The notes beneath the pieces are model-generated. The model saw only the letters and a program-made list of their open reading frames with translations. It was not told the DNA's origin and searched no databases. This document shows positions 15,952 to 31,034 of a stretch of DNA of 64,000 nt, piece by piece. Source of the stretch: Fervidobacterium pennivorans DSM 9078 (lineage in GTDB: Bacteria; Thermotogota; Thermotogae; Thermotogales; Fervidobacteriaceae); contig NC_017095.1 in NCBI RefSeq assembly GCF_000235405.2, forward strand, positions 1,265,501 to 1,329,500, written 5' to 3'. The translations under genes were made by a program, and so were the position numbers. Positions within the stretch are counted from its first letter, which is position 1. Every line of letters begins with the position of its first letter.

Positions 15952-16995
15952 CTAAGGATTTCCATTGCTTCGGTTTTTAGTAGAGTTTCTTATTATTAAT
16001 TCAACAGGCAAGATTATCTGCGAAATGGAACCAGTTTCAATATTCTTTATCAAACTCTTGAACGCTTCTCTTCCCAATCGGATTTTATCTGTAGCTACCG
16101 TGGTTAGCGGAGGCTCTATTATTGACGAAAAGCTGATGTCATCGAAGCCAACAACGGAAAGTTCTTCAGGAATTTTAAGTCCATGCTCTTTTAATAGTTT
16201 GATAACTGCATAGGCAAAGATGTCGTTATAACAGATTATCGCATCATACTTAAAATCTTTTTTCGTCTTCTGGAGAAACATTTGGAAAGTTTCGTAAGCA
16301 TTTTCGAAACCTTCATTTGAGTATATGACTCCGAACTCAACTTTGTTTTCCAAGGTTAGTTCATACTCATTTAGAGCTTTTCTCATCCCCTGTTCCCTAA
16401 CTCTTGCTGCGTATTTGTATTTCTGAGCATTCAAAAAGAGAACATTTTTATGTCCAGTGTCTAAAAGGTATTTCATCGCTATGTATCCGCCACGTTCGTC
16501 GTCACTGCATACGTAGTTTGTAGGTATATTTTCAAATCTTGCCCCAATTACAACATTTGGAATTCCCTGATGGACTAATCTGAGAATATCGTCTATCCTT
16601 GTTTGCACTGCTGTTATAATTAAACCATCAACACGTCTTTGCAACAAAGTGTTTATAGCTTTTTCTTCATTTTCATAGTTTCGATCAGTATTCACAAGCA
16701 ATATTGTATAGCCATAGTTTCGAGCCTCGAGTTCAATTCCCTTTATTACTTCCGCATAGAAAGGATTGGTGTTGTCGACAACAACAACACCTATTAGATG
16801 TGTTTTCCTTGTTCTTAATGCACTGGCTGTACAATCTCTTGTGTATCCAAGCTCAGCTGCAACTCGGAGAATTTTTTCCTTGGTCTCCTTTTTTACGTAT
16901 CCGCGCCCACTTAGTGCACGCGAAACAGTGTTGATGGAGAATCCTGAAGCATCAGCAACATCTTTTATTGTTGCAAACTTTTTTCTTTTCACCAT
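15952..16995 (-). CDS. LacI-family transcriptional regulator
   Basis: 347 residues. TIKDVADASGFSINTVSRAL (about residues 9-28) is a LacI helix-turn-helix, followed by the hinge helix and a periplasmic-binding-like effector domain with VVVDNTNPFYAEV and VVGFDDI. Last gene of the tightly packed sugar operon: its ATG overlaps the stop of the RpiB-like gene. It probably represses the operon by binding the two sites at 29486-29504 and 29638-29656, with the operon's own substrate or an intermediate as inducer. That link is inference from position and operator shape. Confidence 0.85.
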   Translation of the reverse strand: MVKRKKFATIKDVADASGFSINTVSRALSGRGYVKKETKEKILRVAAELGYTRDCTASALRTRKTHLIGVVVVDNTNPFYAEVIKGIELEARNYGYTILLVNTDRNYENEEKAINTLLQRRVDGLIITAVQTRIDDILRLVHQGIPNVVIGARFENIPTNYVCSDDERGGYIAMKYLLDTGHKNVLFLNAQKYKYAARVREQGMRKALNEYELTLENKVEFGVIYSNEGFENAYETFQMFLQKTKKDFKYDAIICYNDIFAYAVIKLLKEHGLKIPEELSVVGFDDISFSSIIEPPLTTVATDKIRLGREAFKSLIKNIETGSISQIILPVELIIRNSTKNRSNGNP

Positions 16996-17477
16996 TATTT
17001 AAAGTTTTCCTCCTCAATTTTCTGAACTTCTTTATACGCATTCTTCAAAAATTCTTGGCGCCATTCTGGAAAACCTTCTGTAAAAGAAGAGTCAAGCCAT
17101 TTATCCACAATATCACATGCTTGTTCAGGAGCAATAACCCAACCACCCATTGTAAGCACATTTGCGTTATTTACAACTTTTGCCATCTTTCCTGTGTAGC
17201 TACCTTCAACGGCAACCGCGTATATACCTTTGAATTTATTAGCAACTATCGACATACCTGCACCTGTTCCGCATATCAATATCCCTCTCTCGTATTCTCC
17301 CGACTGAATCTTTTTCGCAACACGCGGTGCAACAACATAGTAAGGAAGCCAATTTTCTGGGTCCAAAGTTCCCACGTCTTCTACTTCGTATCCTTTCTCT
17401 TGAAGGTACCTTTTCACCGCTTCTTTTAAAGTGAAACCTGATTTATCAGAACCAATAACTATCCTTTTATCAGCCAT
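16995..17477 (-). CDS. RpiB/LacAB-family isomerase; candidate sulfoerythrose isomerase (SqwI-like)
   Basis: 160 residues. The family core is present: GSDKSGFTLKEAV at the start and CGTGAGMSIVANK with the catalytic Cys. Several residues that bind phosphate or open the ring in ribose-5-phosphate isomerases are changed: the SDH motif reads SDK, the His of SRxHND is Val (KVVNNANVL), and the Arg of LGxRV is Trp (MGGWV). This suggests a substrate without a phosphate group. In the sulfo-TK pathway, an enzyme of this family (SqwI) interconverts 4-deoxy-4-sulfoerythrose and -erythrulose. Overlaps the LacI gene; 24 bases after the isomerase gene. Confidence 0.7.
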   Translation of the reverse strand: MADKRIVIGSDKSGFTLKEAVKRYLQEKGYEVEDVGTLDPENWLPYYVVAPRVAKKIQSGEYERGILICGTGAGMSIVANKFKGIYAVAVEGSYTGKMAKVVNNANVLTMGGWVIAPEQACDIVDKWLDSSFTEGFPEWRQEFLKNAYKEVQKIEEENFK

Positions 17478-17501: not shown

Positions 17502-18953
17502 CTATATCAATTTATAATTTTGATAATAATCCCTGTATGGAACTTTATTTATTGGAGAAAGCTCGAGCCAATTCATGACTTCTATGAATTCGTTGTCCCA
17601 GACACCTTTAACAACAGGGAAGTGATGTTCTACCTTTCTGACGAGCAATGTATTCATTAAGTCGAGGGCATTGATTTCTTGCCCAAAGTATTTGAGTTTT
17701 CCCAACCACCCTCTGCTACCAAAGTAATCTGGTTTGCTTTCATCGTTTATAAATTCACCGGTCATCACGAAATATTCAGACAAGTTATTTCCAATCCTCG
17801 CTATGGTCGCTGACATCTCTGAAAACTTCATACTCGCCACCGGTGCCATTTCTAACCATCCTTTACCTTCTACGTAAGGTCCAGGGTTAAAATGTCTTTC
17901 TAAGATGGGCTGACCTTTGGAGTAATATTTGCTACCAATGCCGCAGTGCCACAAGAAGATGCTGTTATCGGACATATCGAAACTGGATAAGTCCATTAAG
18001 ATTGCCGGATAATTAGATATGTACTCGAGTATTTTCATACTTAGCAAGCTGACGATATCACCTTCACAGACAGTTGTAGTTCCTTCATCAGAGAGAAACG
18101 CGTAGGCTCCGCAAGGTACCATGCCCAACTCGCTTCTGAATCTTGGCCAACAACTTATCGCAAGACCATCATAGTTACCTTTCTGAGCAAGTTCTCTAAC
18201 TGCACAGACAAGCCTTGCCATTTTCTCTATAAAACCTTCAGCGAATTTATCAGCAATAAAGTATTTTTCGCGGATTTCTCTTTCAATTTCTCTAACCTTA
18301 CTCTCACTTTGTTCAAAGAACAGCTTCTTTAAATCTCCGAACTCTATTTCGTCAACTGAAACACCAAATTTAGACATTAAAAGTCTTGGATCGTAAAACA
18401 AGTTATCAAACCCGGGTGCTCGTCCACCAACTAACGCATAGTTTGAACCTTTCACATTGACTATGGCTCTCAATGCTCTTATTGTTACTTCAAACCTTCT
18501 TTTGAAAAGTTCGTCTTCAACAAATCCATAGAACCATTTTGCATCTTTACCAAGGTAAGGTAAGAACCTATCTATAATACTCATGTTTAGATTCATATTA
18601 CAGAACGAATTAAGTGGCAAAGGACCGGAAGCAGTTATCTCCGGTACAGCCCACAGACCAAGGTAAGCTTTAGTTTGAGCCAAGATTTGTATCAGATACC
18701 CAGAAGAAAAAGATGTAGACTGGACAAGGAGAAAATCAATTTTTTGGTCTTCCATTTCTTTAAGTGCTTGGATAGCGTCATTTTTAGTCACAACAAAACT
18801 TTCTCTCCAATAGAATTCAAAATCAAGCTCTTGAGACAATTTTCTCAAACCCTCGACGCTTTTGTTGTAAACCTCTTGCTTGTTTCCTCTGTAATTCAGC
18901 TGAATAAGTCCAACAAGTCCTACTCTGAGTTTCCGTTTCATGCTGCTTCTCAT
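17502..18953 (-). CDS. L-fucose/L-arabinose isomerase-like protein; candidate sulfoquinovose isomerase
   Basis: 483 residues. The N-terminal half has two Rossmann-like domains (LRVGLVGL; VKGSNYALVGGRAPGF). The C-terminal half has the metal-site signature of the FucI-like superfamily (COG2407 type): CWPRF, VCEGD and LSSFDMSDN...LWHCG, supplying Glu, Asp and His. The sulfoquinovose isomerases of the transaldolase and transketolase routes (SqvD/SftI) are, as I recall, of this superfamily and unlike E. coli YihS. Overlaps the GH31 gene by 4 bases. In context it would convert the released aldose to the ketose used by the transketolase. The exact sugar is inferred. Confidence 0.65.
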   Translation of the reverse strand: MRSSMKRKLRVGLVGLIQLNYRGNKQEVYNKSVEGLRKLSQELDFEFYWRESFVVTKNDAIQALKEMEDQKIDFLLVQSTSFSSGYLIQILAQTKAYLGLWAVPEITASGPLPLNSFCNMNLNMSIIDRFLPYLGKDAKWFYGFVEDELFKRRFEVTIRALRAIVNVKGSNYALVGGRAPGFDNLFYDPRLLMSKFGVSVDEIEFGDLKKLFFEQSESKVREIEREIREKYFIADKFAEGFIEKMARLVCAVRELAQKGNYDGLAISCWPRFRSELGMVPCGAYAFLSDEGTTTVCEGDIVSLLSMKILEYISNYPAILMDLSSFDMSDNSIFLWHCGIGSKYYSKGQPILERHFNPGPYVEGKGWLEMAPVASMKFSEMSATIARIGNNLSEYFVMTGEFINDESKPDYFGSRGWLGKLKYFGQEINALDLMNTLLVRKVEHHFPVVKGVWDNEFIEVMNWLELSPINKVPYRDYYQNYKLI

Positions 18954-20971
18954 TCCACGCCACCTGCCTTCTCAAAAATATCTTTCCAGCGAGAACTCAA
19001 CCTGTAAAACACGGGCGGATAACCTATCGGGGTTTCTATTTCGTAGATACCTCCTGAGTACTTTTTACCACTCCACAAATGTATCCATTCATCGTCTGGT
19101 AAAAACACTTTTTTTACGTTTTGACCACTTTCTACAACGGGGGCTACCAATAAATCTTCTCCAAAAAGATATTGATACTTCAACTCTTCGACATTATCAA
19201 CCTTGTACTTTAGGTTTAGAGGCATTATTATCGGCTTTCCTTTACAGGTGTACTCTTCAACGAGATGCTTTATATATGGTTTCAAAGCATAATGCACTTT
19301 GCTCATCCGTGCAAAGTGCTCCAACGTCTCTTCATCTGAGTCGAACTGCCAGTTCTCATCTGGCCAATTACCTTCATGTGTTCTCATAACTGGTGTGAAT
19401 GTCGCCTGCTCAGCCCATCTCATAAATAATTCTTTCGTTCGTTTTGTCACAACTATGTCAGGTACGTTTTTTGCTAACGTTGTGTATCCACCTATATCAG
19501 AATGAGTGAGTCCTATTCCTGACATTGTCATAGAGAGTGCTGCAACAATAACGGAGGGTAATCCATCATCCCTCGACCAATTCACAAGCTGGTCTCCATG
19601 CCAGAAAAGTGTTGAGTACTTAGCACTGTAAAGATTTCCCGCCCTCATGAAAAACACAACTTCGCCTTTTTTTCCAGCTTCTTGGACCACTTCTGCGTTT
19701 ATTTTTGCCCACTCCACGGGATACCTGTTGTGGTATAGCTCTGCCTGTGTTCCATCGTACAAAACAGCGTCTGTTGGTAGGTATTCTCCAAAGTCAGCCA
19801 TCCAACCAGAAAGTCCAATACCTATCATATTTGATTTGATGACGTTCTTTATCCATTCCCTGGCTTCTGGGTTTGTGAAATCGACAAGTGCCGCTGGGAA
19901 GGTTGTAACTACAACGTGGTACTCTTCACCGTTGTTCTTTTTAACAAGATATCCCTTTTGTGAAGCTTCTTTGTAGAGCGAGCCCTCCAAAGCAAGGAAT
20001 GTGTTTATATACCCAAGCGTCCTTATTCCCATACTTTTGAGTTGATTTATCATTCCAGGCAAATCTGGATACATGCTCTCATCATAGACCCAGTTCCACA
20101 TCAACTGTTTTCCGAAAGTTGTAATACGTTTGCCTTCCCAATCTTGGATCCAAAGCCCAGTTATTTTCAAACCTTTTTCAAGTGCATTCATAATTTTTGG
20201 CATGACCACATCTCGCCCGCCCTGAAGCCCCAGAATTACTCCATTGTATATCCATTCAGGAAGCGGGTTTGGAAGACCGATATTTTTGGAAAGTTTTATT
20301 ACCGTGTCAATAAGCGACTCTCCAACGCCAAATTCTATCTTCTGCGGTATTTCGTGTATTTCAAGCTCATGGAAATCTCTGTGCGAGAAATCGAATTCAC
20401 TGTAAGCATAACTATGCACTATTGCGTAGTAATTTTTACTTGAAACAAACGTTGGTTGAGGAAAGTAGGTGGTGTACCAATCTCCTCCTGCATCATCTTT
20501 GAAGTTCGCAAAATGGGTTATGATTTCCCTCTTATTCCTTCCAACGCCCTGCTCTGAAACCCACAACGGAACTCTTTTTGAACGCAAGTTTAAATAAGAG
20601 TATTGTTCACCGCATCCGTATATTTCCTCATTTTCGGACGCAGGTATGTAAATCCAAAATCTGTTTAATTGTTCTGAATGTGATAGTATTTCAATATTCA
20701 GCGCGTCCATGCTAATATTGAATCTACATTTCAGTTCTTCACCGCTATGGGAATAGAAGAGTATTTCATAACTTTCTGACGTTTTCGATATCACTTTGAA
20801 CTCTCTCAGCGGTATCTTAATTTTGTAGTATTTTGAAATGTTAAAATTCCCATGCGACATTTCGTATGTATTTTCACCATAACCCACTGCAAACATAGGA
20901 AAATCCTTCTTATGCATCAATTCAAAACTTCCCAGCTTTAATCTAATTGATTTATCGTTAATCTCTATCAT
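18950..20971 (-). CDS. GH31 alpha-glycosidase of the YihQ (sulfoquinovosidase) type, sulfonate Arg replaced by Gln
   Basis: 673 residues against 678 in E. coli YihQ. From memory of that sequence, the match runs from IYGCGEQYSY to near the C-terminus. Catalytic residues align at a constant offset: nucleophile Asp393 (WMADFGEYLPTD) and acid/base Asp460 (WHGDQLVNW). Of the YihQ substrate motif Q262-Q288-R301-W304-Y508, four are present (Gln250, Gln276, Trp292, Tyr496) but Arg301 is Gln289 (GKQLMWNW against GKRVMWNW). That Arg holds the sulfonate, so specificity may differ. ATG 20971 follows AAAGAGG by eight bases; the GTG at 20980 is less likely. No signal peptide: a cytoplasmic enzyme acting on imported glycosides. 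Confidence 0.8.
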   Translation of the reverse strand: MIEINDKSIRLKLGSFELMHKKDFPMFAVGYGENTYEMSHGNFNISKYYKIKIPLREFKVISKTSESYEILFYSHSGEELKCRFNISMDALNIEILSHSEQLNRFWIYIPASENEEIYGCGEQYSYLNLRSKRVPLWVSEQGVGRNKREIITHFANFKDDAGGDWYTTYFPQPTFVSSKNYYAIVHSYAYSEFDFSHRDFHELEIHEIPQKIEFGVGESLIDTVIKLSKNIGLPNPLPEWIYNGVILGLQGGRDVVMPKIMNALEKGLKITGLWIQDWEGKRITTFGKQLMWNWVYDESMYPDLPGMINQLKSMGIRTLGYINTFLALEGSLYKEASQKGYLVKKNNGEEYHVVVTTFPAALVDFTNPEAREWIKNVIKSNMIGIGLSGWMADFGEYLPTDAVLYDGTQAELYHNRYPVEWAKINAEVVQEAGKKGEVVFFMRAGNLYSAKYSTLFWHGDQLVNWSRDDGLPSVIVAALSMTMSGIGLTHSDIGGYTTLAKNVPDIVVTKRTKELFMRWAEQATFTPVMRTHEGNWPDENWQFDSDEETLEHFARMSKVHYALKPYIKHLVEEYTCKGKPIIMPLNLKYKVDNVEELKYQYLFGEDLLVAPVVESGQNVKKVFLPDDEWIHLWSGKKYSGGIYEIETPIGYPPVFYRLSSRWKDIFEKAGGVE

Positions 20972-21008
20972 TGTTACCACCTCTTTGGGCTATAAAGGCC
21001 ACATAACC

Positions 21009-21977
21009 TTACTTTTCCAAAAACTTTTTAGCTTCACTGTAAATATCCTTTGCCGTCATCTTGTATTTCTCAAGCAGAAAGTCCGTTAATCCGACCTCAC
21101 CAAAGTGGTCCCTTACACCTATCCTCACAACAGGAACTGGATAGTGCTCGGTTACTACTTCACAGACCGCACTCCCCCATCCGTTGAGTATGCTGTGGTT
21201 TTCAGCAACAACTATCTTCCCAGTTTCCTTTGCCGCTTTGATAATGGTCTCCTCATCAACAGGTTTAAGTGTATGCATATTCAACAATCTCACGCTGATT
21301 CCCTCATCTTCAAGCATGTGTGTAGCAATTATAGCCTGGCCTACCATCAACCCAGAAGCAATTATAGTTACATCCTTTCCATCTTTCATCGTGTATATCT
21401 TCCCAATTTCGAATTTTTCATTGCCAGAGAAGAACCTATCCTTTCTTCGTCTGTAAAGCCTTGTATAAACTGGTCGTTCATGATAGATGATTTGCTTAAA
21501 CAACGCTCTGAGTTGAATAGCATCAGCAGGTTCAACTATGACCATATTAGGCAGATTTCTCATTATACCAGCATCTTCAAAGCTCATATGTGTACCGCCG
21601 TTGAGTTCTGCTGTAACACCTGGATCCGTTCCCATTATTTTCACAGGTAATCCCGCGTAAGCTATGGATATTGTTATTTGGTCGTACGCGCGCCTGGTTG
21701 CAAATGGGGTAAAACTGTGAGCAATTGGAATAAGTCCCATATTTGCAAGTCCTGCAGCTATACCCATCATATTTGCCTCTGCTACTCCAACATCGATAAA
21801 TCTCTCGGGAAACTTTTCTTTGAATTTCAGCGTGCTATCCGACCTTGCTAAGTCCGCGTTTAACACAACAATGCGGTCATCCTGTTCTGCCAAATTAAGC
21901 AACAGCTCACCGTATATATCTCTAATTTCCCTATCATCTTGCGTTGGCAAAGGCAATAGTTTCTTTGTATTGCTCAT
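21009..21977 (-). CDS. Transketolase, C-terminal subunit (pyrimidine-binding and C domains); SqwH-like candidate
   Basis: 322 residues, the usual size of split transketolase C subunits. The pyrimidine-domain glutamate is in DVGVAEANMMG. The segment that usually reads GPTHQ is GGTHMSFED, and the C domain begins around KDVTIIASGLM. Together with the N subunit, overlapping by 4 bases, it forms the thiamine-diphosphate enzyme. In a sulfo-TK pathway, the same transketolase acts twice, on sulfofructose and then on sulfoerythrulose, passing two-carbon units to glyceraldehyde-3-phosphate. Its place among sugar catabolic genes rather than with pentose-phosphate genes supports a dedicated role. Confidence 0.8.
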   Translation of the reverse strand: MSNTKKLLPLPTQDDREIRDIYGELLLNLAEQDDRIVVLNADLARSDSTLKFKEKFPERFIDVGVAEANMMGIAAGLANMGLIPIAHSFTPFATRRAYDQITISIAYAGLPVKIMGTDPGVTAELNGGTHMSFEDAGIMRNLPNMVIVEPADAIQLRALFKQIIYHERPVYTRLYRRRKDRFFSGNEKFEIGKIYTMKDGKDVTIIASGLMVGQAIIATHMLEDEGISVRLLNMHTLKPVDEETIIKAAKETGKIVVAENHSILNGWGSAVCEVVTEHYPVPVVRIGVRDHFGEVGLTDFLLEKYKMTAKDIYSEAKKFLEK

Positions 21978-22849
21978 TGCACATCAGCTCCTTCAATTTC
22001 TTCGATTTCTTTTCTGAGGTTATCTATCGCAATTTTTAATTCCTCTTTCTTGATAGGCATATTGTGGGATGTCACTTTACCTTCCGCAAAGAAAGCCCCT
22101 TTACCTTTGATTGTGTGCAATATTATCATCGTTGGTTTTTCATCTTGCGACATGCCTTCACGGATAGCATTGTATATCTGCTGTACATCGTGGCCATCAA
22201 TTTCTATCACATGCCAATTAAACGCTCTCCATTTATCTGCAAGTGGTTCAAGGTTATTAACTTCGTGAATGTACCCGTCTATCTGCATTTTGTTGTAATC
22301 GGTAAAAGCAATTAAGTTATTCAGTTTATTATGTGAAGCAAACATCGCTGCTTCCCAGATTTGACCTTCTTGAGATTCCCCGTCACCTATAAGAGCAAAG
22401 ACACGTATGTTCATCTTCCTGATTCTCGCCCCAAGTGCCATGCCAACGGCAGCTGATAAACCTTGTCCGAGTGAGCCAGCGGTCATATCAACACCTGGAG
22501 TTTTTAACCTGTCGCAATGACTTGGAAGATTCGTATTAGGTTTGTTCAACGTGTATATCCATTCGTATGGAAAGTATCCAAGGTCCGCTAATACAGCGTA
22601 GAGCGCAGGTCCAGCATGCCCTTTCGACAGGACAAATCTGTCCCGTTCGTCCCATTTAGGGTTCTTGGGGTCTATTCTCATAACCTTGTAGTAGAGCACC
22701 GCCAAAGCTTCAGCTATGGATAGGGAACCTCCGACATGCCCTACTCCAAGATGACCTATCATTTCAAGGGTAATAATTCTTATTTGCGTTGCTTTCTTTT
22801 TCAAGAAAGTAACTTCTTCCGGTGTCAAATCTGGTAGTTTGCCATTCAA
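21974..22849 (-). CDS. Transketolase, N-terminal subunit (TPP-binding domain); SqwG-like candidate
   Basis: 291 residues. The thiamine-diphosphate motif is GDGESQEGQIWEAA with the later Asn of FTDYNKMQIDG; LSKGHAGPALYA and GSLGQGLS carry catalytic histidine and loop residues. The gene starts with TTG: GGAGG lies eight bases upstream, while the nearby ATG is out of frame. Overlaps the C-subunit gene by the ATGA arrangement, so equal amounts are made. Follows the iron alcohol dehydrogenase by 37 bases. Confidence 0.8.
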   Translation of the reverse strand: MNGKLPDLTPEEVTFLKKKATQIRIITLEMIGHLGVGHVGGSLSIAEALAVLYYKVMRIDPKNPKWDERDRFVLSKGHAGPALYAVLADLGYFPYEWIYTLNKPNTNLPSHCDRLKTPGVDMTAGSLGQGLSAAVGMALGARIRKMNIRVFALIGDGESQEGQIWEAAMFASHNKLNNLIAFTDYNKMQIDGYIHEVNNLEPLADKWRAFNWHVIEIDGHDVQQIYNAIREGMSQDEKPTMIILHTIKGKGAFFAEGKVTSHNMPIKKEELKIAIDNLRKEIEEIEGADVQ

Positions 22850-22886: not shown

Positions 22887-24005
22887 TCAATATATCTCTT
22901 TTAAGATTCTTAGCACATCATCATAACTTGGTTTCCCTGGTGTCAGATTTATTATGTTCGCTTCCATGGAAACCTTAGCTATTTCTTCAAGCTCATTCTC
23001 TTTTACACCATAGTCACGAAGTCTGCGTGAAAACCCCGAATACTCCATTAATTGCTCCACTTTCTTGGCAAGTTCTTCCACATCTTTCAATCCAAGATAA
23101 CTTGCAAAATCATCCATTTTCTTGGAAACAAATTTGTAAGTCCACCTAATCAAACTTGGTAGTGTCAGTGCACACGCAAGCCCATGCTCCACGTTGTAAA
23201 AGCTTGTTATTGGAAAGCTAATAGCATGTGCTGCTGTTGTTCTTGTTTGACTAAATGCCACACCCGCTATTGTCGCTGCCACAGCCATTTCATCCCTTGC
23301 CCATTCTTCACCATCGATAGAAGCTTCGAAACTTTCCAGTATCATTTTCGCTGCTCTCAAAGCAAGTCCTTCAGTGTAAGGTTGCGTACTAATAGCCCAG
23401 TAGCTTTCAACTGCATGTGTAAGCGCATCGAGCCCTGTTGTAGCTGCAATTCTCCTTGGCATCGAATAAGTCAAGATAGGGTCTATCAAAGCAACATCCG
23501 CCCAAAATGTTGGACTTGTCATCGGTCTCTTTATCCCATTCAGTGTGTAAACTCCAACATTTGTCACTTCACTGCCTGTTCCTGACGTCGTTGGCACAAG
23601 CATCAGTGGTAATCTTCTGTCAAACCTTTTCTTTCCTTCAATATAATCACTTAGTTTCCCTTCGCTCACTAACAGAGAGCTTATCGCTTTTGCAGTATCA
23701 AGTGTGCTCCCTCCACCGATACCTATCACACCATCAAATTTAGGAGCGCCTTTTGAATACTCATACACACTCTCGATAATCTCATCAATCATTTCGCACG
23801 GTGGGTTGGGAACGATTTTATCGTAAATAAAAACTGATTTGTACTTTTCCATAGCCCTTTTAAAATATTCGCTTGTGCTAACAAATGGGTCACATATAAC
23901 AAGTACTTGCGAAACACCAAAGATATCCCTTGAGTTTTCTAATTCACCCTTTCCGTATACAATTCTGACAGGATTAAATATTTGGAATTTCTCGGTTTCT
24001 AACAT
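22887..24005 (-). CDS. Iron-dependent alcohol dehydrogenase; candidate sulfoacetaldehyde reductase
   Basis: 372 residues, group III Fe-ADH. GIGGGSTLDTAKA is the NAD(P)-binding loop; iron ligands are in ALIDP (Asp), LTHAVE (His), TTAAHAISFP (His) and NVEHGLAC (His). In sulfonate metabolism, Fe-ADHs such as Bilophila SarD reduce sulfoacetaldehyde to isethionate, and a reductase closes the fermentative form of the sulfo-TK pathway. GAGGAGG eight bases before ATG 24005 favours this over the GTG at 24014. The start lies 5 bases after the EamA stop codon. A butanol or lactaldehyde dehydrogenase remains possible by sequence alone. Confidence 0.75.
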   Translation of the reverse strand: MLETEKFQIFNPVRIVYGKGELENSRDIFGVSQVLVICDPFVSTSEYFKRAMEKYKSVFIYDKIVPNPPCEMIDEIIESVYEYSKGAPKFDGVIGIGGGSTLDTAKAISSLLVSEGKLSDYIEGKKRFDRRLPLMLVPTTSGTGSEVTNVGVYTLNGIKRPMTSPTFWADVALIDPILTYSMPRRIAATTGLDALTHAVESYWAISTQPYTEGLALRAAKMILESFEASIDGEEWARDEMAVAATIAGVAFSQTRTTAAHAISFPITSFYNVEHGLACALTLPSLIRWTYKFVSKKMDDFASYLGLKDVEELAKKVEQLMEYSGFSRRLRDYGVKENELEEIAKVSMEANIINLTPGKPSYDDVLRILKEIY

Positions 24006-24010
24006 ATTTA

Positions 24011-24934
24011 TCACCTCCTCGCTTGCCTTCTTTGTTTGATAAACTGATTGTTCATGGTCAACAAGAACGCACCCACGAGTATCACCACGACACCTATTAA
24101 TTGTTTACCAGTAATGGACTCTCCAAAAAAAGACATCACAATCAGCACATACACCGGCATGAATAAAAGCGAGGTTCTCACAAGCCACACGGGGAAAAGT
24201 CTTAGATTTCTGTAATAAACCACGTATATCAAGTACTGAAACATACCGGCAGAAATAAGTCCCAACGTAGGTATATTAATGCCCAATAGTCTAAAGTTAT
24301 CAATCACCTCGTGTAGTAGTGACTTCAATGAAAAAAGTGAAAAAAACACTAGTGTGAAGAGATTGTTGTAAAACGCAATAACAAAATCTGTTCCAGGGTT
24401 TCTTTTATCTTCTTGAACACTCCGAATAACAAATGCGTTCAAACTTATGAAAAACGCGCTCAGTAAGAAAAATACATCTCCTTGACTAAGCTTTAGTAAG
24501 TTTTGAGCATTTGATACGAGACCTACACCAAGGAGCATAAACACCATCGCAATTATATCCAGCAATCCTGGGATTTCTCCAAAAAACAGAGAGATAAAAG
24601 CCGAGAAGAGTACGTCCGTTCTCAACAGCACCGCACCTTTCGAAGCCGTTGAATACTTAAAACCCAAGAATGCGGTAATATCCAAAGCAAAACCAAGTAG
24701 ACCTATTAAGAGAAGTCTCAAAAAAATATATCTTACCTTCAATAATTCACCATTTCTCCTCAGTATTGCTCCCACCAAGAGCATAAAAAAGAGCACAAAA
24801 GTACGTATGAATATACCATTGAAGATTACACTAAATGCGGATAAGGATATTTTAGTTGCTACATAATAAGTTCCCCATACAACGACTAGTGTTAAGAGGT
24901 TTACTGCCTTTATAATCACACTCTCCCTTTCCAT
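24011..24934 (-). CDS. EamA/DMT-family transporter; possible product exporter
   Basis: About 307 residues with ten predicted membrane helices in two EamA repeats (first repeat from VVVWGTYYVATK, second from DVFFLLSAFFISLNAF). DMT proteins export metabolites or amino acids. In this operon, export of the sulfonated end product is a natural guess. The start is uncertain: TTG 24943, ATG 24934 and GTG 24919 are all in frame, and the best ribosome site (AAAGG) favours ATG 24934 weakly or GTG 24919. Confidence 0.6.
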   Translation of the reverse strand: MERESVIIKAVNLLTLVVVWGTYYVATKISLSAFSVIFNGIFIRTFVLFFMLLVGAILRRNGELLKVRYIFLRLLLIGLLGFALDITAFLGFKYSTASKGAVLLRTDVLFSAFISLFFGEIPGLLDIIAMVFMLLGVGLVSNAQNLLKLSQGDVFFLLSAFFISLNAFVIRSVQEDKRNPGTDFVIAFYNNLFTLVFFSLFSLKSLLHEVIDNFRLLGINIPTLGLISAGMFQYLIYVVYYRNLRLFPVWLVRTSLLFMPVYVLIVMSFFGESITGKQLIGVVVILVGAFLLTMNNQFIKQRRQARR

Positions 24935-24965
24935 CTCCAGCAAAATTGTTCAAACAAAGTAATTG

Positions 24966-26405
24966 TCAAATTAACTCTCTTTCTAATTCCCTCAAAGTAT
25001 TTTCATCTACATTTGCACCCTGACGTTTGGCATTCAGAATTTCTATCAGTTTTTTATGAACTTCTGGTTTGAGCGGGTATCTTATTGCACAATAGATACC
25101 CACCAACAGTAACAAGATTGGTCCAACGAAAACTATTAAACGTATTGCCAACACAACACTCTCTGGTTGTTTTGGAATCTCGTTACCCTTCGGGTTTATG
25201 TATCCTACTGCACCAAGTATCAAAAGAATTAAAGCTTGAACAAGCGCTGATGAAACTTTTCGAAGGAACGTTGCAAGCGAAGAAATACTTCCTTCCCTTC
25301 TTTCAGAATATTTCAACTCAGCAACATCGGTAACATCTCCAAGAATCGTATGTGGCATAACAGCGACTGCAGAAACACCTGCACCTATCAGTGCTGCAAC
25401 GGCCAACAACAGTTGTGATGGCCAATCTGGTCTGAAAAAGAATGTGATCGCGGCACCTACCATCCATACCAAAGCACCAACAATATACGCAAAATTCTTA
25501 CTTTTTTTCCTCGCAATAGTTGCATAAACTGGCACGAAGATGATTTCGGTTATAAGTAAAACCCCCAGAACAGCGGAAACAAAGTAAGGTCTTCCGATGT
25601 AGTATTTCATGTAGTACGGGAAGATAACAGAAACGGTGTCAATCGCCAGATACGCAAAAAGGAACATGCCAAGATAAAGCCTGAATGTCTTTATTTTGAG
25701 TGGTTCTATAATCAATTCTTTAAAATTCAGTTTGGTTGTTGCAGGGTTGAAGTTCTTTTCTTTTGTAAATGCAAAAACCCCAAGATATGGCAGTGCAAAA
25801 AACGTTCCAAAGATGATTGACATCGTTAAGTAACCCTTCTTTGGGTCGCCCATACTTTTCACTATCATCATCGGTAAAACCGCGCAAAGGAGTGATGATA
25901 GTAGAGAGAACATTAGCCTCAAAGAATTTATTGCAGTTCTTTCGTTGTAGTCTAGAGTAATTTCCGCACTCATTGCGGTGTAAGGTATCAAAACCATTGT
26001 TACAACCGTGTTGAGGAACATATATGAAAAGAGGGCGTATAAAAATCTTGCAAATGTACTCTCAAACGATACCGGATACCAAACCATAACAAACGATAGG
26101 AATATAAATGGTACACCAAACAAAAAATACGGTCTGCGCCTACCCCATCTTGATTTTGTTCTGTCACTTATGTAACCCATTATTGGATCTGTTATAGCAT
26201 CCCATATCTTACCAACCAAGAAAATGATGGAGGCATAAGCTGGAGGAATCTTAACAACATCGGTCAAAAAAATCGCGTAGAAGAAGTTGATGATGTTAAA
26301 TACTCCTCCACCGTAAACATCACCCAATCCGAAGAAGAACTTCGTTATAAACGGCACCTTTTCGTTCCCATTCACATGGTTATCGCCCTTAACTTCTATA
26401 CTCAT
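24966..26405 (-). CDS. GPH-family sugar:cation symporter (YihO/YihP-like context)
   Basis: 479 residues, twelve membrane helices. FFFGLGDVYGGGVFNIINFFY and DAITDPIMGYISDRTKSRWGRRRPY are the hallmarks of glycoside-pentoside-hexuronide:cation symporters (MelB, XynB, YihO/YihP). In E. coli, YihO and YihP of this family belong to the sulfoquinovose locus. Here it adds a second uptake system beside the ABC importer, or exchanges product for substrate. Overlaps the upstream permease by ATGA. Confidence 0.8.
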   Translation of the reverse strand: MSIEVKGDNHVNGNEKVPFITKFFFGLGDVYGGGVFNIINFFYAIFLTDVVKIPPAYASIIFLVGKIWDAITDPIMGYISDRTKSRWGRRRPYFLFGVPFIFLSFVMVWYPVSFESTFARFLYALFSYMFLNTVVTMVLIPYTAMSAEITLDYNERTAINSLRLMFSLLSSLLCAVLPMMIVKSMGDPKKGYLTMSIIFGTFFALPYLGVFAFTKEKNFNPATTKLNFKELIIEPLKIKTFRLYLGMFLFAYLAIDTVSVIFPYYMKYYIGRPYFVSAVLGVLLITEIIFVPVYATIARKKSKNFAYIVGALVWMVGAAITFFFRPDWPSQLLLAVAALIGAGVSAVAVMPHTILGDVTDVAELKYSERREGSISSLATFLRKVSSALVQALILLILGAVGYINPKGNEIPKQPESVVLAIRLIVFVGPILLLLVGIYCAIRYPLKPEVHKKLIEILNAKRQGANVDENTLRELERELI

Positions 26406-27253
26406 CCCTTAATCCCCCCTGATATAAGACCTTTTATAATGTATCTTTGCAAGCTCAGAGTTATAACAAACACCGGTATGAGCATAATAGTACCCGCAGC
26501 TGTCAGCTGTCCCCACCTTGGAGCATATTGTCCAAGAAAACCATTCACAGCAACAGGTGCAGTTCTTGCGTTCACAGATGTCAAAATCAGAGCATACAAA
26601 AATTCGTTCCAGGACATCAAAAATGCAAACACACTTGCTACCACAAGTCCCGGAGAAACGAGTGGAAAGAAAACTCTCCAAAAAATCTGCTTTTCCGTAG
26701 CACCATCTACTCTTGCCGCTTCTTCATAATCTCGAGGCACAGCAGCAAAAAAAGGTAGAAGTAACCATATGACATACGGTATGTTAAAACTGACGTGAGC
26801 CAAGATTATGCCTGTCAATGTGTCTCTCAGTCTTAAATAGTTAAACATAACGTAAAGTGGTATAACAAGCGATATTTGTGGAATCATTCTGAAACCAAGA
26901 AAAGTATATGCTATTGCTTCTTTGAACTTAAATACGTACCTTGTAAGTCCATAAGATGCCATCGCACCAACGATGATAGAAATCATCGTTGAGCTTGCAC
27001 CAACAACAAGACTGTTCTTCAAACTATTTAAAAAGTCACTGTTTGAAAGTACCTCTTTGTAGCTTTGAAGTGTTGGTTTAAAGTAAAAAGGTCCACGAGC
27101 CCAAATATCAATGTCCCTTTTAAACCCACTGGTAATAACGACTATTATAGGCATCAATTCAACTATTAAAACGGTCAATGAAACAATAAAAATAAGAGAT
27201 GAAATGACTGTTTTCGTTCTTTTTCTCGCTCTTCTCCTTCCATCTGTTCTCAT
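26402..27253 (-). CDS. Sugar ABC transporter permease (MalG-type)
   Basis: 283 residues, six membrane helices, EAA loop YEEAARVDGATEKQIFW followed by RVFFPLVSPGL. Pairs with the upstream MalF-type permease and binding protein. Overlaps both neighbours by 4 bases, so it is firmly within the operon. No ATPase subunit is encoded in the operon. Confidence 0.85.
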   Translation of the reverse strand: MRTDGRRRARKRTKTVISSLIFIVSLTVLIVELMPIIVVITSGFKRDIDIWARGPFYFKPTLQSYKEVLSNSDFLNSLKNSLVVGASSTMISIIVGAMASYGLTRYVFKFKEAIAYTFLGFRMIPQISLVIPLYVMFNYLRLRDTLTGIILAHVSFNIPYVIWLLLPFFAAVPRDYEEAARVDGATEKQIFWRVFFPLVSPGLVVASVFAFLMSWNEFLYALILTSVNARTAPVAVNGFLGQYAPRWGQLTAAGTIMLIPVFVITLSLQRYIIKGLISGGIKG

Positions 27254-28164
27254 CCACGCTCACCTTCAAACTGAATATTCCGTCGCACGATAAAGAAAGA
27301 TATTGTTAGCGCAAGAACAAGCAAAACAACACCCATCGCAGCAGCATATCCTATGTTGAAAAATTCAAATGCTTGCTTATTGATATAAAGTGACAGCAAC
27401 ATCGTCGCGTTTCCAGGTCCTCCGCCGGTCATAACGTAAACTTCGGAAAATATCCTCAGTGCATCGACCAACCTAAGTAAAAATGCTGTCGCTATAGTTG
27501 ACCTAAGCTGAGGCAAGATAATTTTAAACACCCTGGTCCAAAACCGAGCGCCATCGATTTCTGCGGCTTCAATAATTTCCCTTGGTAGTCCAGTCAGTCC
27601 AGCATATATGAACATAAACATAAATGGCCACATACGCCAGACATCCTGAACCACCACCATTCCATAAGCAAAATCAGGTTCCGCAAGCCACGCCTTTACA
27701 CCAAAACCAAGTTTTTCCAAAATGAAGCTTATGATACCGTATTCTGGTTGTAACATCAAACGCCAAGTTAAACCGGAAATAACAGGAAGAATAAAAACAG
27801 GGAGCAAAAGTAACGACCTAACCAAAGTATAGAATTTCCCGTCTCGGTTCAGCAGTAGCGCCACGAAAAAGCCTATAATCGTTTCTATTGGTAGTGCAAT
27901 GACAACAAAACCAAACTGAAGCCAAAGCGAATGCAAAAATTCTTTATCTTTAAACAGCCGAATAAAATTCCCAAACCCTATAAACTTTCTTTCCGCGGTG
28001 TGAAACAGGTTCCAGTCAAATGTTGACATGTAAATGGAATATATCACCGGAAATACAAGAATAGCAAAAACTATTACCAAGGCAGGAATGATGAAGAACC
28101 AATGGGGGCTTGAGCCCCCACTTTTCTTGGTCTTACTACTTACCAACAAGCTCGTTGAGCTCAT
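27250..28164 (-). CDS. Sugar ABC transporter permease (MalF-type)
   Basis: 304 residues with an N-terminal cytoplasmic tail, then six membrane helices; EAA loop IIEAAEIDGARFWTRVF and KIILPQLRST. The ATG at 28164 lies within the last codons of the binding-protein gene (29-base overlap) after a GAGGAAG ribosome site. A GC-rich hairpin (28103-28120) falls in its first codons and may tune its translation or processing. Confidence 0.85.
   Translation of the reverse strand: MSSTSLLVSSKTKKSGGSSPHWFFIIPALVIVFAILVFPVIYSIYMSTFDWNLFHTAERKFIGFGNFIRLFKDKEFLHSLWLQFGFVVIALPIETIIGFFVALLLNRDGKFYTLVRSLLLLPVFILPVISGLTWRLMLQPEYGIISFILEKLGFGVKAWLAEPDFAYGMVVVQDVWRMWPFMFMFIYAGLTGLPREIIEAAEIDGARFWTRVFKIILPQLRSTIATAFLLRLVDALRIFSEVYVMTGGGPGNATMLLSLYINKQAFEFFNIGYAAAMGVVLLVLALTISFFIVRRNIQFEGERG
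28103..28120 (-). promoter_or_regulatory. GC-rich RNA hairpin just after the binding-protein stop
   Basis: TGGGGGCT and AGCCCCCA form a perfect 8-bp inverted repeat with almost no loop, beginning 15 bases downstream of the binding-protein stop and inside the permease frame. There is no good T run on the minus strand, so it looks like an mRNA-stabilising or processing hairpin rather than a terminator. Confidence 0.5.
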
Positions 28165-29407
28165 CTTTCATCTTCCTCACAGCTTCTTCTGCCGTCATCT
28201 TTCCGCTTATTGCCGCCAGCCAATAGTTCCTGATTATCTGGGAAGCTTCGGGATATTTTGTAAACCTTGGTCTGGCGACAGCATTCTTCATAGAATCAAA
28301 AATAGCCTTAAACCAAGGTCTTTCCTTGTTGTAATTCGGGTTGAGCAGTAAATCGGACCTGGCCGGAGTGAAACCTTTTGGGATGAGTTTTTGCCCTGTT
28401 TGATATGAAGCCCACCAGTAAGCAAACTCTGCCGCCGCTTCTTTGTTCTTCGAGGCGATTGGCATAGCTAATACCCAGCACCCTCTAATGGCTGCTCCTT
28501 TTACTGGACCAACTGGCGGTGCTGAGTAGATAATCTTACCTGCGACAAGTGAGTTGTTTGGATCTTCATGTTGTGGAACAAGCGCTGGCCATTGGAACAT
28601 CGTAAATACCTTCCCTTGATTAAATGCGGCAATCCTTTCTGAGTGCCCCATGTCAAGTGCACCCGGAGGTGAGAACTTTAAAAGTTCTTTGTAGAAATTA
28701 ATCGCTTCGACTGCTTTCTTTTCATCGAGAGAAACAACAACTTTGCCTCCTTGTACAGTCAAAGGACTTGTACCAAATGATTCAAACATGAATATCGCTT
28801 CTGCTGTTGAACCTTCTGTCTGTTTTGTGAACGGTGCGAATCCATAAATACCTTTGGAATAGAAGAACTCTGCCATGTCTTTTAGTTCCTTGAACGTTTT
28901 TGGTACACCAAGGTCGTATCCATACTTTGATTTGAACTCAGTTCTGTACTTTGGATCATTGATTAAATCTTTCCTTGTCATCCAGATATAAACGTTTGCG
29001 TTAATAGGCATACCTACGAAGACCCCTGCCCACTGTGCTGCTTCGAAAGCGTTCGGTGCAAAGACATTGAGATTCGGCTTTTTGTAAACTTTACCCAGTG
29101 CCCACTGCTCAAATGGTAACATGAGGTGTGCGAGGGCTGGTATGAACGGTTCATCCACAGTTACCAAATCATAGTCTGTTTTGTCCAAACCAACGCTTAC
29201 TCCAATCTTTTGCAGTAAGTTACCCGACGGAACCAACTCGAGGACAACTTTTATACCTGTTGCTTTTTCAAAATCAGATATACCTGTCTTGAGAGCCTGA
29301 GTCAGCGCGTCGTCCCACGCAAGAACTTTGATCGTTGTGTTGTAAGGTGCCGCAAGAACAACCGCCAAAAGACCTACTAGAAACAGTGCTAAAAATACCC
29401 TTTTCAT
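28136..29407 (-). CDS. Sugar ABC transporter, substrate-binding protein (first gene of the sugar operon)
   Basis: 423 residues, family 1 solute-binding protein. Signal peptide residues 1-19 (VFLALFLVGLLAVVLA then APYN). The mature part opens with TIKVLAWDD and contains the two-lobe pattern of CUT1 carbohydrate receptors (GVFVGMPINANVYIWM; WWASYQTGQKLIP). A GGGGGTGAT ribosome site precedes ATG 29407. It is preceded by a 320-base control region with two operator-like sites. By context the ligand may be sulfoquinovose or its glycerol glycoside, as for SmoF of Agrobacterium, but no binding-site residue shows this. Confidence 0.8.
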   Translation of the reverse strand: MKRVFLALFLVGLLAVVLAAPYNTTIKVLAWDDALTQALKTGISDFEKATGIKVVLELVPSGNLLQKIGVSVGLDKTDYDLVTVDEPFIPALAHLMLPFEQWALGKVYKKPNLNVFAPNAFEAAQWAGVFVGMPINANVYIWMTRKDLINDPKYRTEFKSKYGYDLGVPKTFKELKDMAEFFYSKGIYGFAPFTKQTEGSTAEAIFMFESFGTSPLTVQGGKVVVSLDEKKAVEAINFYKELLKFSPPGALDMGHSERIAAFNQGKVFTMFQWPALVPQHEDPNNSLVAGKIIYSAPPVGPVKGAAIRGCWVLAMPIASKNKEAAAEFAYWWASYQTGQKLIPKGFTPARSDLLLNPNYNKERPWFKAIFDSMKNAVARPRFTKYPEASQIIRNYWLAAISGKMTAEEAVRKMKDELNELVGK

Positions 29408-30233: not shown

Positions 30234-31001
30234 TCAGATTAAGTCCATGAGTATTTTGGCAAAAAGTATTGCAAGAACCCCAAGCATCACAGGTTTGATA
30301 ATCTTTGCACCTTTTTTCAATGCAAGTCCCGAACCGAGCCAGTTGCCCGCAATCCCGAAGACGGCTGCAGGCAGTCCTATGGAATACAAAACCTTTTTAC
30401 CAACGATGAAAGTAAGAAGTGCACCTATGTTTGAAGCCAAATTGACTATCTTAGCTGTTCCAGATGCACTCACATGATCTAAGGACAAAAAACTCACATA
30501 GAGTATTATCAAAAATGTACCAGTTCCTGGTCCAAAGAAGCCATCGTATGTGCCTATAGTTAAACCTATCAAACCAGAAACTACAACAGCACGTGTCTTT
30601 GAGATGTTTTCCACTTCCAATGTTCTTTCTTTCCTCGGATTTGCCAAAAGGACAATTAAAGCTGCCAGAGGTATTAAGAAGGCTAAAACCAATTTTAAGA
30701 TGTTATCGCTCAATACAAGTGCCAACCTAGCACCTATATGTGATCCAATAAGCGACCCAACGACTGAAGGAACAGCAATAAGGTAAACTATCGCCCTTCC
30801 TTTCGCATACCTGAGCGTGCTGAAAATTGTTCCTATCGTTGATGAAAGTTTGTTTGTAGCCAGTGCGTTATGACTTGGCAAACCTACGAACAAATAAGCA
30901 GGAAGTGAGATAAGACCTCCACCCCCAGCTATTGAGTCAACGAATCCTGCTAAGAAAATTAATGGATAAAGTATAATTAAGTCTTGAAAAGTTATGTCCA
31001 T
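30234..31001 (-). CDS. TauE/SafE (TSUP) family exporter
   Basis: 255 residues, about eight membrane helices. AGFVDSIAGGGGLISLPAY and GTYDGFFGPGTGTFLI are the two repeated TSUP signatures. Characterised members export sulfite, sulfoacetate or other organosulfonates. It lies just upstream of the candidate sulfoglycolysis operon, though in its own transcription unit. The in-frame GTG at 31010 is possible; ATG 31001 has the better-spaced GTGAG. The family also includes members with unrelated substrates. Confidence 0.8.
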   Translation of the reverse strand: MDITFQDLIILYPLIFLAGFVDSIAGGGGLISLPAYLFVGLPSHNALATNKLSSTIGTIFSTLRYAKGRAIVYLIAVPSVVGSLIGSHIGARLALVLSDNILKLVLAFLIPLAALIVLLANPRKERTLEVENISKTRAVVVSGLIGLTIGTYDGFFGPGTGTFLIILYVSFLSLDHVSASGTAKIVNLASNIGALLTFIVGKKVLYSIGLPAAVFGIAGNWLGSGLALKKGAKIIKPVMLGVLAILFAKILMDLI

Positions 31002-31034
31002 TTTAATCACTCACTTTTCTGCTAGATGAATACA

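Follow-up and report, generated by a model that had tools for sequence, protein, structure and literature searches.

In this work, we analysed a stretch of 64,000 nucleotides from Fervidobacterium pennivorans DSM 9078 (NC_017095.1, positions 1,265,501 to 1,329,500; hereafter the window, in whose positions all coordinates are given), which encodes a GH31 enzyme of the YihQ family with Gln at the position of Arg301 of E. coli YihQ, the residue that we take to bind the sulfonate. The enzyme is probably a retaining α-sulfoquinovosidase belonging to a branch of the YihQ clade that has Gln at this position. Its conserved active site, the fold of its predicted model, the operon around it, the clade-wide occurrence of Gln and a coupled change of the following loop can be regarded as established, and, as judged from sequences, the Gln form is a widespread second form, most members of which lie in gene clusters of the same kind. 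The window enzyme lacks one feature of the published motif, and we class it within the YihQ clade as a variant of Gln type, not as a typical member.

The gene (18953..20980, reverse strand; 676 amino acids) begins with a GTG at 20980 and ends with a stop codon at 18950-18952. A sequence-only reading of this DNA had placed it at 18950-20971; the frame was right, but 20971 belongs to an ATG three codons downstream of the GTG, and the residue numbered Gln289 there is Gln292 in the full frame, where it is aligned with E. coli Arg301 (codon 20105..20107, reverse strand). That reading had also proposed one constant offset to YihQ for all motif residues. Using the fetched sequence of E. coli MG1655 YihQ as the reference, we found an offset of 9 throughout, with Q262, Q288, R301, W304, D405, D472 and Y508 corresponding to Q253, Q279, Q292, W295, D396, D463 and Y499, respectively. 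Both catalytic Asp residues are thus kept, namely Asp396 (19793..19795, reverse strand) for Asp405, presumably the nucleophile, and Asp463 (19592..19594, reverse strand) for Asp472, presumably the acid/base, together with Q262, Q288, W304, Y508 and H537. The sulfoquinovosidase substrate motif, which we assume to comprise Q262, Q288, Arg301, W304 and Y508, reads QQQWY in the window enzyme, so that Gln292 stands where YihQ-type GH31 sulfoquinovosidases have the sulfonate Arg. The protein nevertheless passes the NCBIfam model of the YihQ family (NF007746) with 892.5 bits against a cut-off of 553. In its AlphaFold2 model (m65658bc51b39; predicted local distance difference test score, 92.5), the nearest solved structures were four sulfoquinovosidases, with template modelling scores of 0.91-0.96, and other GH31 enzymes scored about 0.70-0.73.

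Gln at this position is common. When Thermotogota genomes were searched with a threshold of E 1e-60 or better, 29 of 103 were positive, each with a single enzyme of either type, and position 301 was Gln in 26 of the 29 homologues and Arg in three, which excludes chance or a sequencing error. Among named genomes, with other phyla included, the 80 best-matching relatives, a selection that favours sequences close to the query, consisted of 11 Gln-type and 69 Arg-type enzymes. In the Gln rows (n = 34), Q262, Q288, W304 and D405 were kept throughout, and D472 and H537 in 33 and 32 rows, respectively, the remainder being gaps; position 508 was Tyr in 27, Phe in five and a gap in two. One further Gln-type sequence (L130), which the motif filter missed, is absent from the alignments, but the context count includes it after manual addition. 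In the accessible portions of the literature on GH31 sulfoquinovosidases, our search found nothing on Gln in place of YihQ Arg301.

The exchange of Arg for Gln goes together with other changes in the pocket. For the residue-coupling comparison, 138 rows less than 95% alike were used (49 Gln and 89 Arg); near-copies were removed above 95% likeness in row comparisons and above 80% in the 79-row tree described below. The FGEF loop of the Arg types becomes (V/I)TTFP in the Gln types, and in the window enzyme V358-T359-T360-F361-P362 (19895..19909, reverse strand) takes the place of the Arg-type FGEFY loop, by which the acid is removed. At E. coli position 368, Thr was present in 45/49 Gln rows and 4/89 Arg rows, the Arg rows mostly having Gly (83/89); at position 369, it was present in 37/49 Gln rows and 1/89 Arg rows, with Glu in 82/89 of the latter; and at position 371, Pro in 46/49 Gln rows faced Tyr in 59/89 Arg rows. 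An acid at positions 366-369 was found in all 89 Arg rows and in 5/49 Gln rows, an aberrant Arg row without it (L212) being left out, and the Fisher value for this difference is tiny, but counts kindred rows as independent. L178, L180 and L212, in which several active-site residues are missing, were kept out of the residue-coupling and context counts and retained in the larger tree and the pair test, while L182 was dropped from all four because of its overlap with L181. The closest contrast is between the Gln-type L194 and the Arg-type L193, L195, L196 and L197, which share 69-71% identity with it, and positions 301, 365, 366, 369 and 370 are among the residues that differ jointly between L194 and these sisters. 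This joint exchange, seen both in the row counts and in the closest contrast, is suggestive of a partnership between Arg301 and the acid of the following loop, both being swapped together.

A neighbouring Arg that fills the vacated position had been named as an outcome that would count against the loss of the sulfonate grip, and no adjacent Arg or Lys does so. Arg256 of the window enzyme (in GGR) was ruled out as a replacement, being confined to the window and two closely related species, and so was the Lys preceding Gln292, whose place other Gln types fill with Ser, Thr, Arg or Tyr. The candidate that did emerge is distant: the basic residue gained most strongly in the Gln types is Lys or Arg at E. 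coli position 145 (45/49 Gln rows against 13/89 Arg rows), which is Arg136 in the window enzyme (codon 20573..20575, reverse strand; E. coli Pro145), a possible compensating charge as judged by sequence position in the row comparison. We propose that the Arg301/Glu369 pair is replaced by a neutral, hydrogen-bonding sulfonate pocket, which would be formed by Gln292, Thr359/Thr360, Trp295 and a water on Tyr499, and to which Arg136 from the N-terminal domain would perhaps add a distant charge for the sulfonate. If the loss of the canonical Arg instead meant that sulfoquinovosidase activity had been lost, the operon would run on free sulfoquinovose (SQ). This seems very improbable, as the catalytic residues, the intact frame and a new loop that is conserved in Gln rows of several phyla all speak against it.

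At least two core sulfoglycolysis genes adjoin the glycosidase at 21/26 Gln-type and 3/3 Arg-type loci of Thermotogota, the five remaining Gln-type loci lying on contigs of 3.5-6.6 kb. Among the named loci, the corresponding counts were 7/10 and 44/69 (the context counts exclude L059, which duplicates the contig of L012), and many of the Arg-type misses were Enterobacterales, whose yih genes mostly belong to other families. The Gln-type loci include a full operon with isomerase, transketolase, RpiB, iron-containing alcohol dehydrogenase (Fe-ADH), TauE and DUF4867 genes (L095), an oxidative variant (L068) in which a SauS-like dehydrogenase is accompanied by a CoA ligase, and a locus with transaldolase and sulfolactaldehyde-reductase-like genes (L138). 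SuyB-like genes were present at 12/35 Gln-type loci; since galactarate dehydratase was the only match of the SuyB-like protein in the PDB, a sulfolyase role rests on context. At Gln-type loci of Thermotogota (L039-L042, L049-L053 and L055-L057), we observed transaldolase, aldehyde dehydrogenase and split SAF and GD_AH proteins resembling SuyAB, although not every piece is present in every locus, and these loci possibly encode a route from SQ to sulfite. Several other relatives were also recorded. In a Bacillota metagenome-assembled genome (MAG.222; L060), an ABC transporter is flanked by two Gln-type paralogues, and the genome encodes one more YihQ homologue, its third, while its SqvD-like proteins are all distant ones. 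A Silvanigrella metagenome-assembled genome (L135) has a Gln-type frame with one in-frame TAA, beside SqvD, transketolase, RpiB and GPH genes. Two metagenome-assembled genomes labelled Lokiarchaeota (L089 and L096) carry a YihQ homologue with Arg and a different loop adjoining an SqvD isomerase, and in L089 a transaldolase also lies beside it.

The main reason for thinking that both types free the same sugar is their exchange on related downstream enzymes. In a tree of joined transketolase and RpiB sequences, the operons of Thermotogota formed one clade (support, 100/98) with both Gln- and Arg-type loci inside, and four operons of Spirochaetota formed another (100/100), again with both types inside. 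In contrast, the grouping of the glycosidases of these operons as one clade was rejected in each of the two sets (approximately unbiased test, p 0.004 and 0.0005). As the cores of each set form one clade while the glycosidases do not, there have been two or more exchanges of the glycosidase between Gln and Arg types while the downstream enzymes stayed closely related. The transketolase/RpiB core of the window shows 62% identity to that of the Arg-type loci L045 and L046, and 63-64% to Gln operons of other Thermotogota families. The sequence-only reading had also raised the possibility that the whole operon would have to be reinterpreted; this is not supported, because Gln and Arg types feed closely related transketolase cores in both phyla, and the window operon is a standard sulfo-transketolase set. 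In the 79-row tree, which was built without the signature columns and without the truncated L030, there were two label changes, the Gln rows forming one group that encloses one Arg group, and four label changes were needed when more Spirochaetota rows were added. The trees gave no answer on the direction of the change between Arg and Gln (the outgroup row was very long, and the other trees were midpoint-rooted).

Several observations weigh against the explanation given above. All four solved sulfoquinovosidases have the Arg, each together with the FGEF acid, and none has Gln; a Gln form common among proven sulfoquinovosidases had been named as the other refuting outcome, and the form turns out to be common in uncharacterised homologues and absent from these four enzymes. 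When the coupling of Arg and acid was assessed by independent pairs, there were four contrasts, of which two or three agreed and none opposed (p ≥ 0.25), which points to few events. The isomerase and the dehydrogenase of the window score far below their family cut-offs. The remaining points come from Spirochaetota, in which 66 of 392 genomes were positive at E 1e-80 or better and neighbourhoods were surveyed in 29 of the 66 (38 stretches, mostly from the top of the list). Seven of these genomes have one Arg-type and one Gln-type copy each, with the catalytic residues kept, and in five of the seven (G493, G464, G348, G486 and G353) no sulfoglycolysis locus contains the Gln copy. At least two core genes adjoined 6/15 Gln types and 13/20 Arg types in this survey (Fisher p 0.18), and some Arg types, too, were without such neighbours (fewer than two core genes at 7/20, compared with 9/15 for Gln). 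The Gln locus of L194 is without the operon and its genome without a detectable isomerase, unlike L193 and its sisters.

Off-locus Gln copies mostly lie beside a GPH symporter only (L175-L192 set), while in several genomes sulfoglycolysis genes surround or adjoin the Arg-type copy; in the Gln copy of G486, Tyr508 is replaced by Asn. In G451, transketolase genes accompany the Gln copy, and the contig that carries the Arg copy is short. Three more Gln types are solitary (L207, L208 and L211), and no SqvD isomerase was detectable in the genomes of L207, L208, L211 and L194. An apparently related protein, by eye similar to the metallo-beta-lactamase fold, follows the Arg-type and the Gln-type gene alike in L193 (11197-12204) and L194 (4757-5761). 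The Gln type is thus not a synonym of sulfoquinovosidase, and because Gln types also stand outside sulfoglycolysis loci, the assignment of the window enzyme rests on its operon and close relatives.

These observations bear on two other explanations. First, the window enzyme could cut another C6-substituted or an unsubstituted α-glucoside, with the operon degrading that sugar, as would fit the loss of the presumed sulfonate grip, the five off-locus paralogues beside Arg types, the divergent isomerase of the window, and an Fe-ADH whose best match is a phosphonate-linked model, under its cut-off. However, the same transketolase/RpiB core serves the Arg types of L045 and L046, and DUF4867, TauE, SauS-like or SuyAB-like genes adjoin Gln types, so that we consider this explanation unlikely. 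Between the alternatives offered by the sequence-only reading, a variant sulfoquinovosidase that binds the sulfonate in another way is therefore better supported for the window than an enzyme for a different C6-modified glucoside, and a different substrate may apply to some Spirochaetota paralogues. Second, the sulfonate might still be bound and the Gln/Arg difference might track the glycoside, the enzyme being a sulfoquinovosidase with a different preference for the aglycone or conjugate (e.g. a larger sulfolipid fragment). One genome, G416 (L181), has Gln- and Arg-type copies at opposite ends of one sulfo-transketolase cluster, and many of the signature positions (E. coli 52, 145, 150, 177 and 181) belong to the N-terminal part, but the single enzyme of either type in each matching Thermotogota genome speaks against a division of this kind. 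We hold it as a tentative alternative, which overlaps with a Gln-type sulfoquinovosidase and does not exclude it.

For the window, a Gln-type sulfoquinovosidase would free SQ from sulfolipid-derived glycosides, after which an isomerase would convert SQ into sulfofructose, transketolase would act twice, with an RpiB-type isomerase working between its two steps, and sulfoacetaldehyde would finally be reduced to isethionate. The glycosidase gene lies between a divergent SqvD-type isomerase gene and a split transketolase, and all operon genes are on one strand, the reverse strand. By profile matches, the operon contains a LacI-family regulator (15955..16995), an isomerase of the RpiB/LacAB family (16998..17477), and the C-terminal (21012..21977) and N-terminal (21977..22849) halves of transketolase SqwGH. 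The RpiB-family protein would be the sulfoerythrose isomerase SqwI, a role taken from the accessible part of PMC9594981. The SqvD/SftI-like SQ isomerase (17505..18953) is homologous but divergent (NF048012, 125.6 bits; cut-off, 700), with 28% identity (E 8e-39) to its homologue in L095; no meaningful homologue was found among solved structures, and the operon has no detectable DUF4867 protein next to it. The Fe-ADH (22890..24014), a putative sulfoacetaldehyde reductase SqwF, scores below all cut-offs (PsrA, 211.8 against 423.7; SarD, the sulfonate-specific model, 180.6 against 700). Transport may be provided by an EamA transporter (24014..24943; PF00892), possibly for sulfonate export, a GPH-family symporter (24969..26405; TIGR00792, 236 bits; cut-off, 231), and a sugar ABC transporter (26405..29407) with two permeases and a distantly SmoF-like binding protein, for which SmoF (49.8 bits) came behind several maltose/trehalose-binding proteins. 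A TauE/TSUP exporter gene upstream (30237..31010, reverse strand; PF01925, 154.8 bits; cut-off, 32.6) may be linked to the operon. In sequence scans, promoters were not above chance and terminators were little above chance.

Sulfoquinovosidases are customarily recognised by Arg301. Should the Gln types prove active, accounts of sulfolipid turnover that are based on Arg-requiring screens overlook the majority of the Thermotogota homologues, as well as some of the Spirochaetota and Bacillota ones. Taking all observations together, we give about even chances to a broader picture, in which a whole branch of sulfoquinovosidases of the YihQ clade, spread over four phyla or more, binds the sulfonate without the canonical Arg, Arg/Glu being exchanged for neutral Gln/Thr plus an N-terminal basic residue, the Gln form may be the older one, and some Spirochaetota paralogues have moved to another glycoside. 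Naturally occurring pairs, in which enzymes of the two types have been swapped on a single pathway, would allow a direct test of how the sulfonate is bound.

The system can be compared with several known ones. Thermotogae are named as holders of the sulfo-transketolase or the related transaldolase pathway in the accessible parts of PMC12890257 and PMC9594981. As far as the same sources describe it, the sulfo-transketolase pathway of Clostridium sp. MSTE9 resembles the window in its isomerase, split transketolase, RpiB-type isomerase, Fe-ADH and glycosidase; the window differs in its divergent isomerase, its Gln-type glycosidase and the absence of a detected DUF4867 protein. The same question of sulfonate contact arises in an unrelated sulfoquinovosidase family, where, according to the accessible part of the source, a backbone amide makes the contact and is intact; in the window enzyme, by contrast, a side-chain cation has been lost. 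The closest known enzymes are the four solved GH31 sulfoquinovosidases, E. coli YihQ (5AED, 5OHT), E. rectale SftG (6PNR), BmSQase (8R56) and A. tumefaciens SQase (5OHS, 5OHY), with which the window enzyme shares the fold, the catalytic Asp pair, the equivalents of W304 and Y508, and 42-50% identity. Its QQ pair is common to three of the four, while in A. tumefaciens SQase Lys and Glu replace this pair and the Arg is retained. In comparison with these enzymes, the window enzyme has Gln for Arg, VTTF for FGEF and Arg136 for Pro145 (E. coli numbering).

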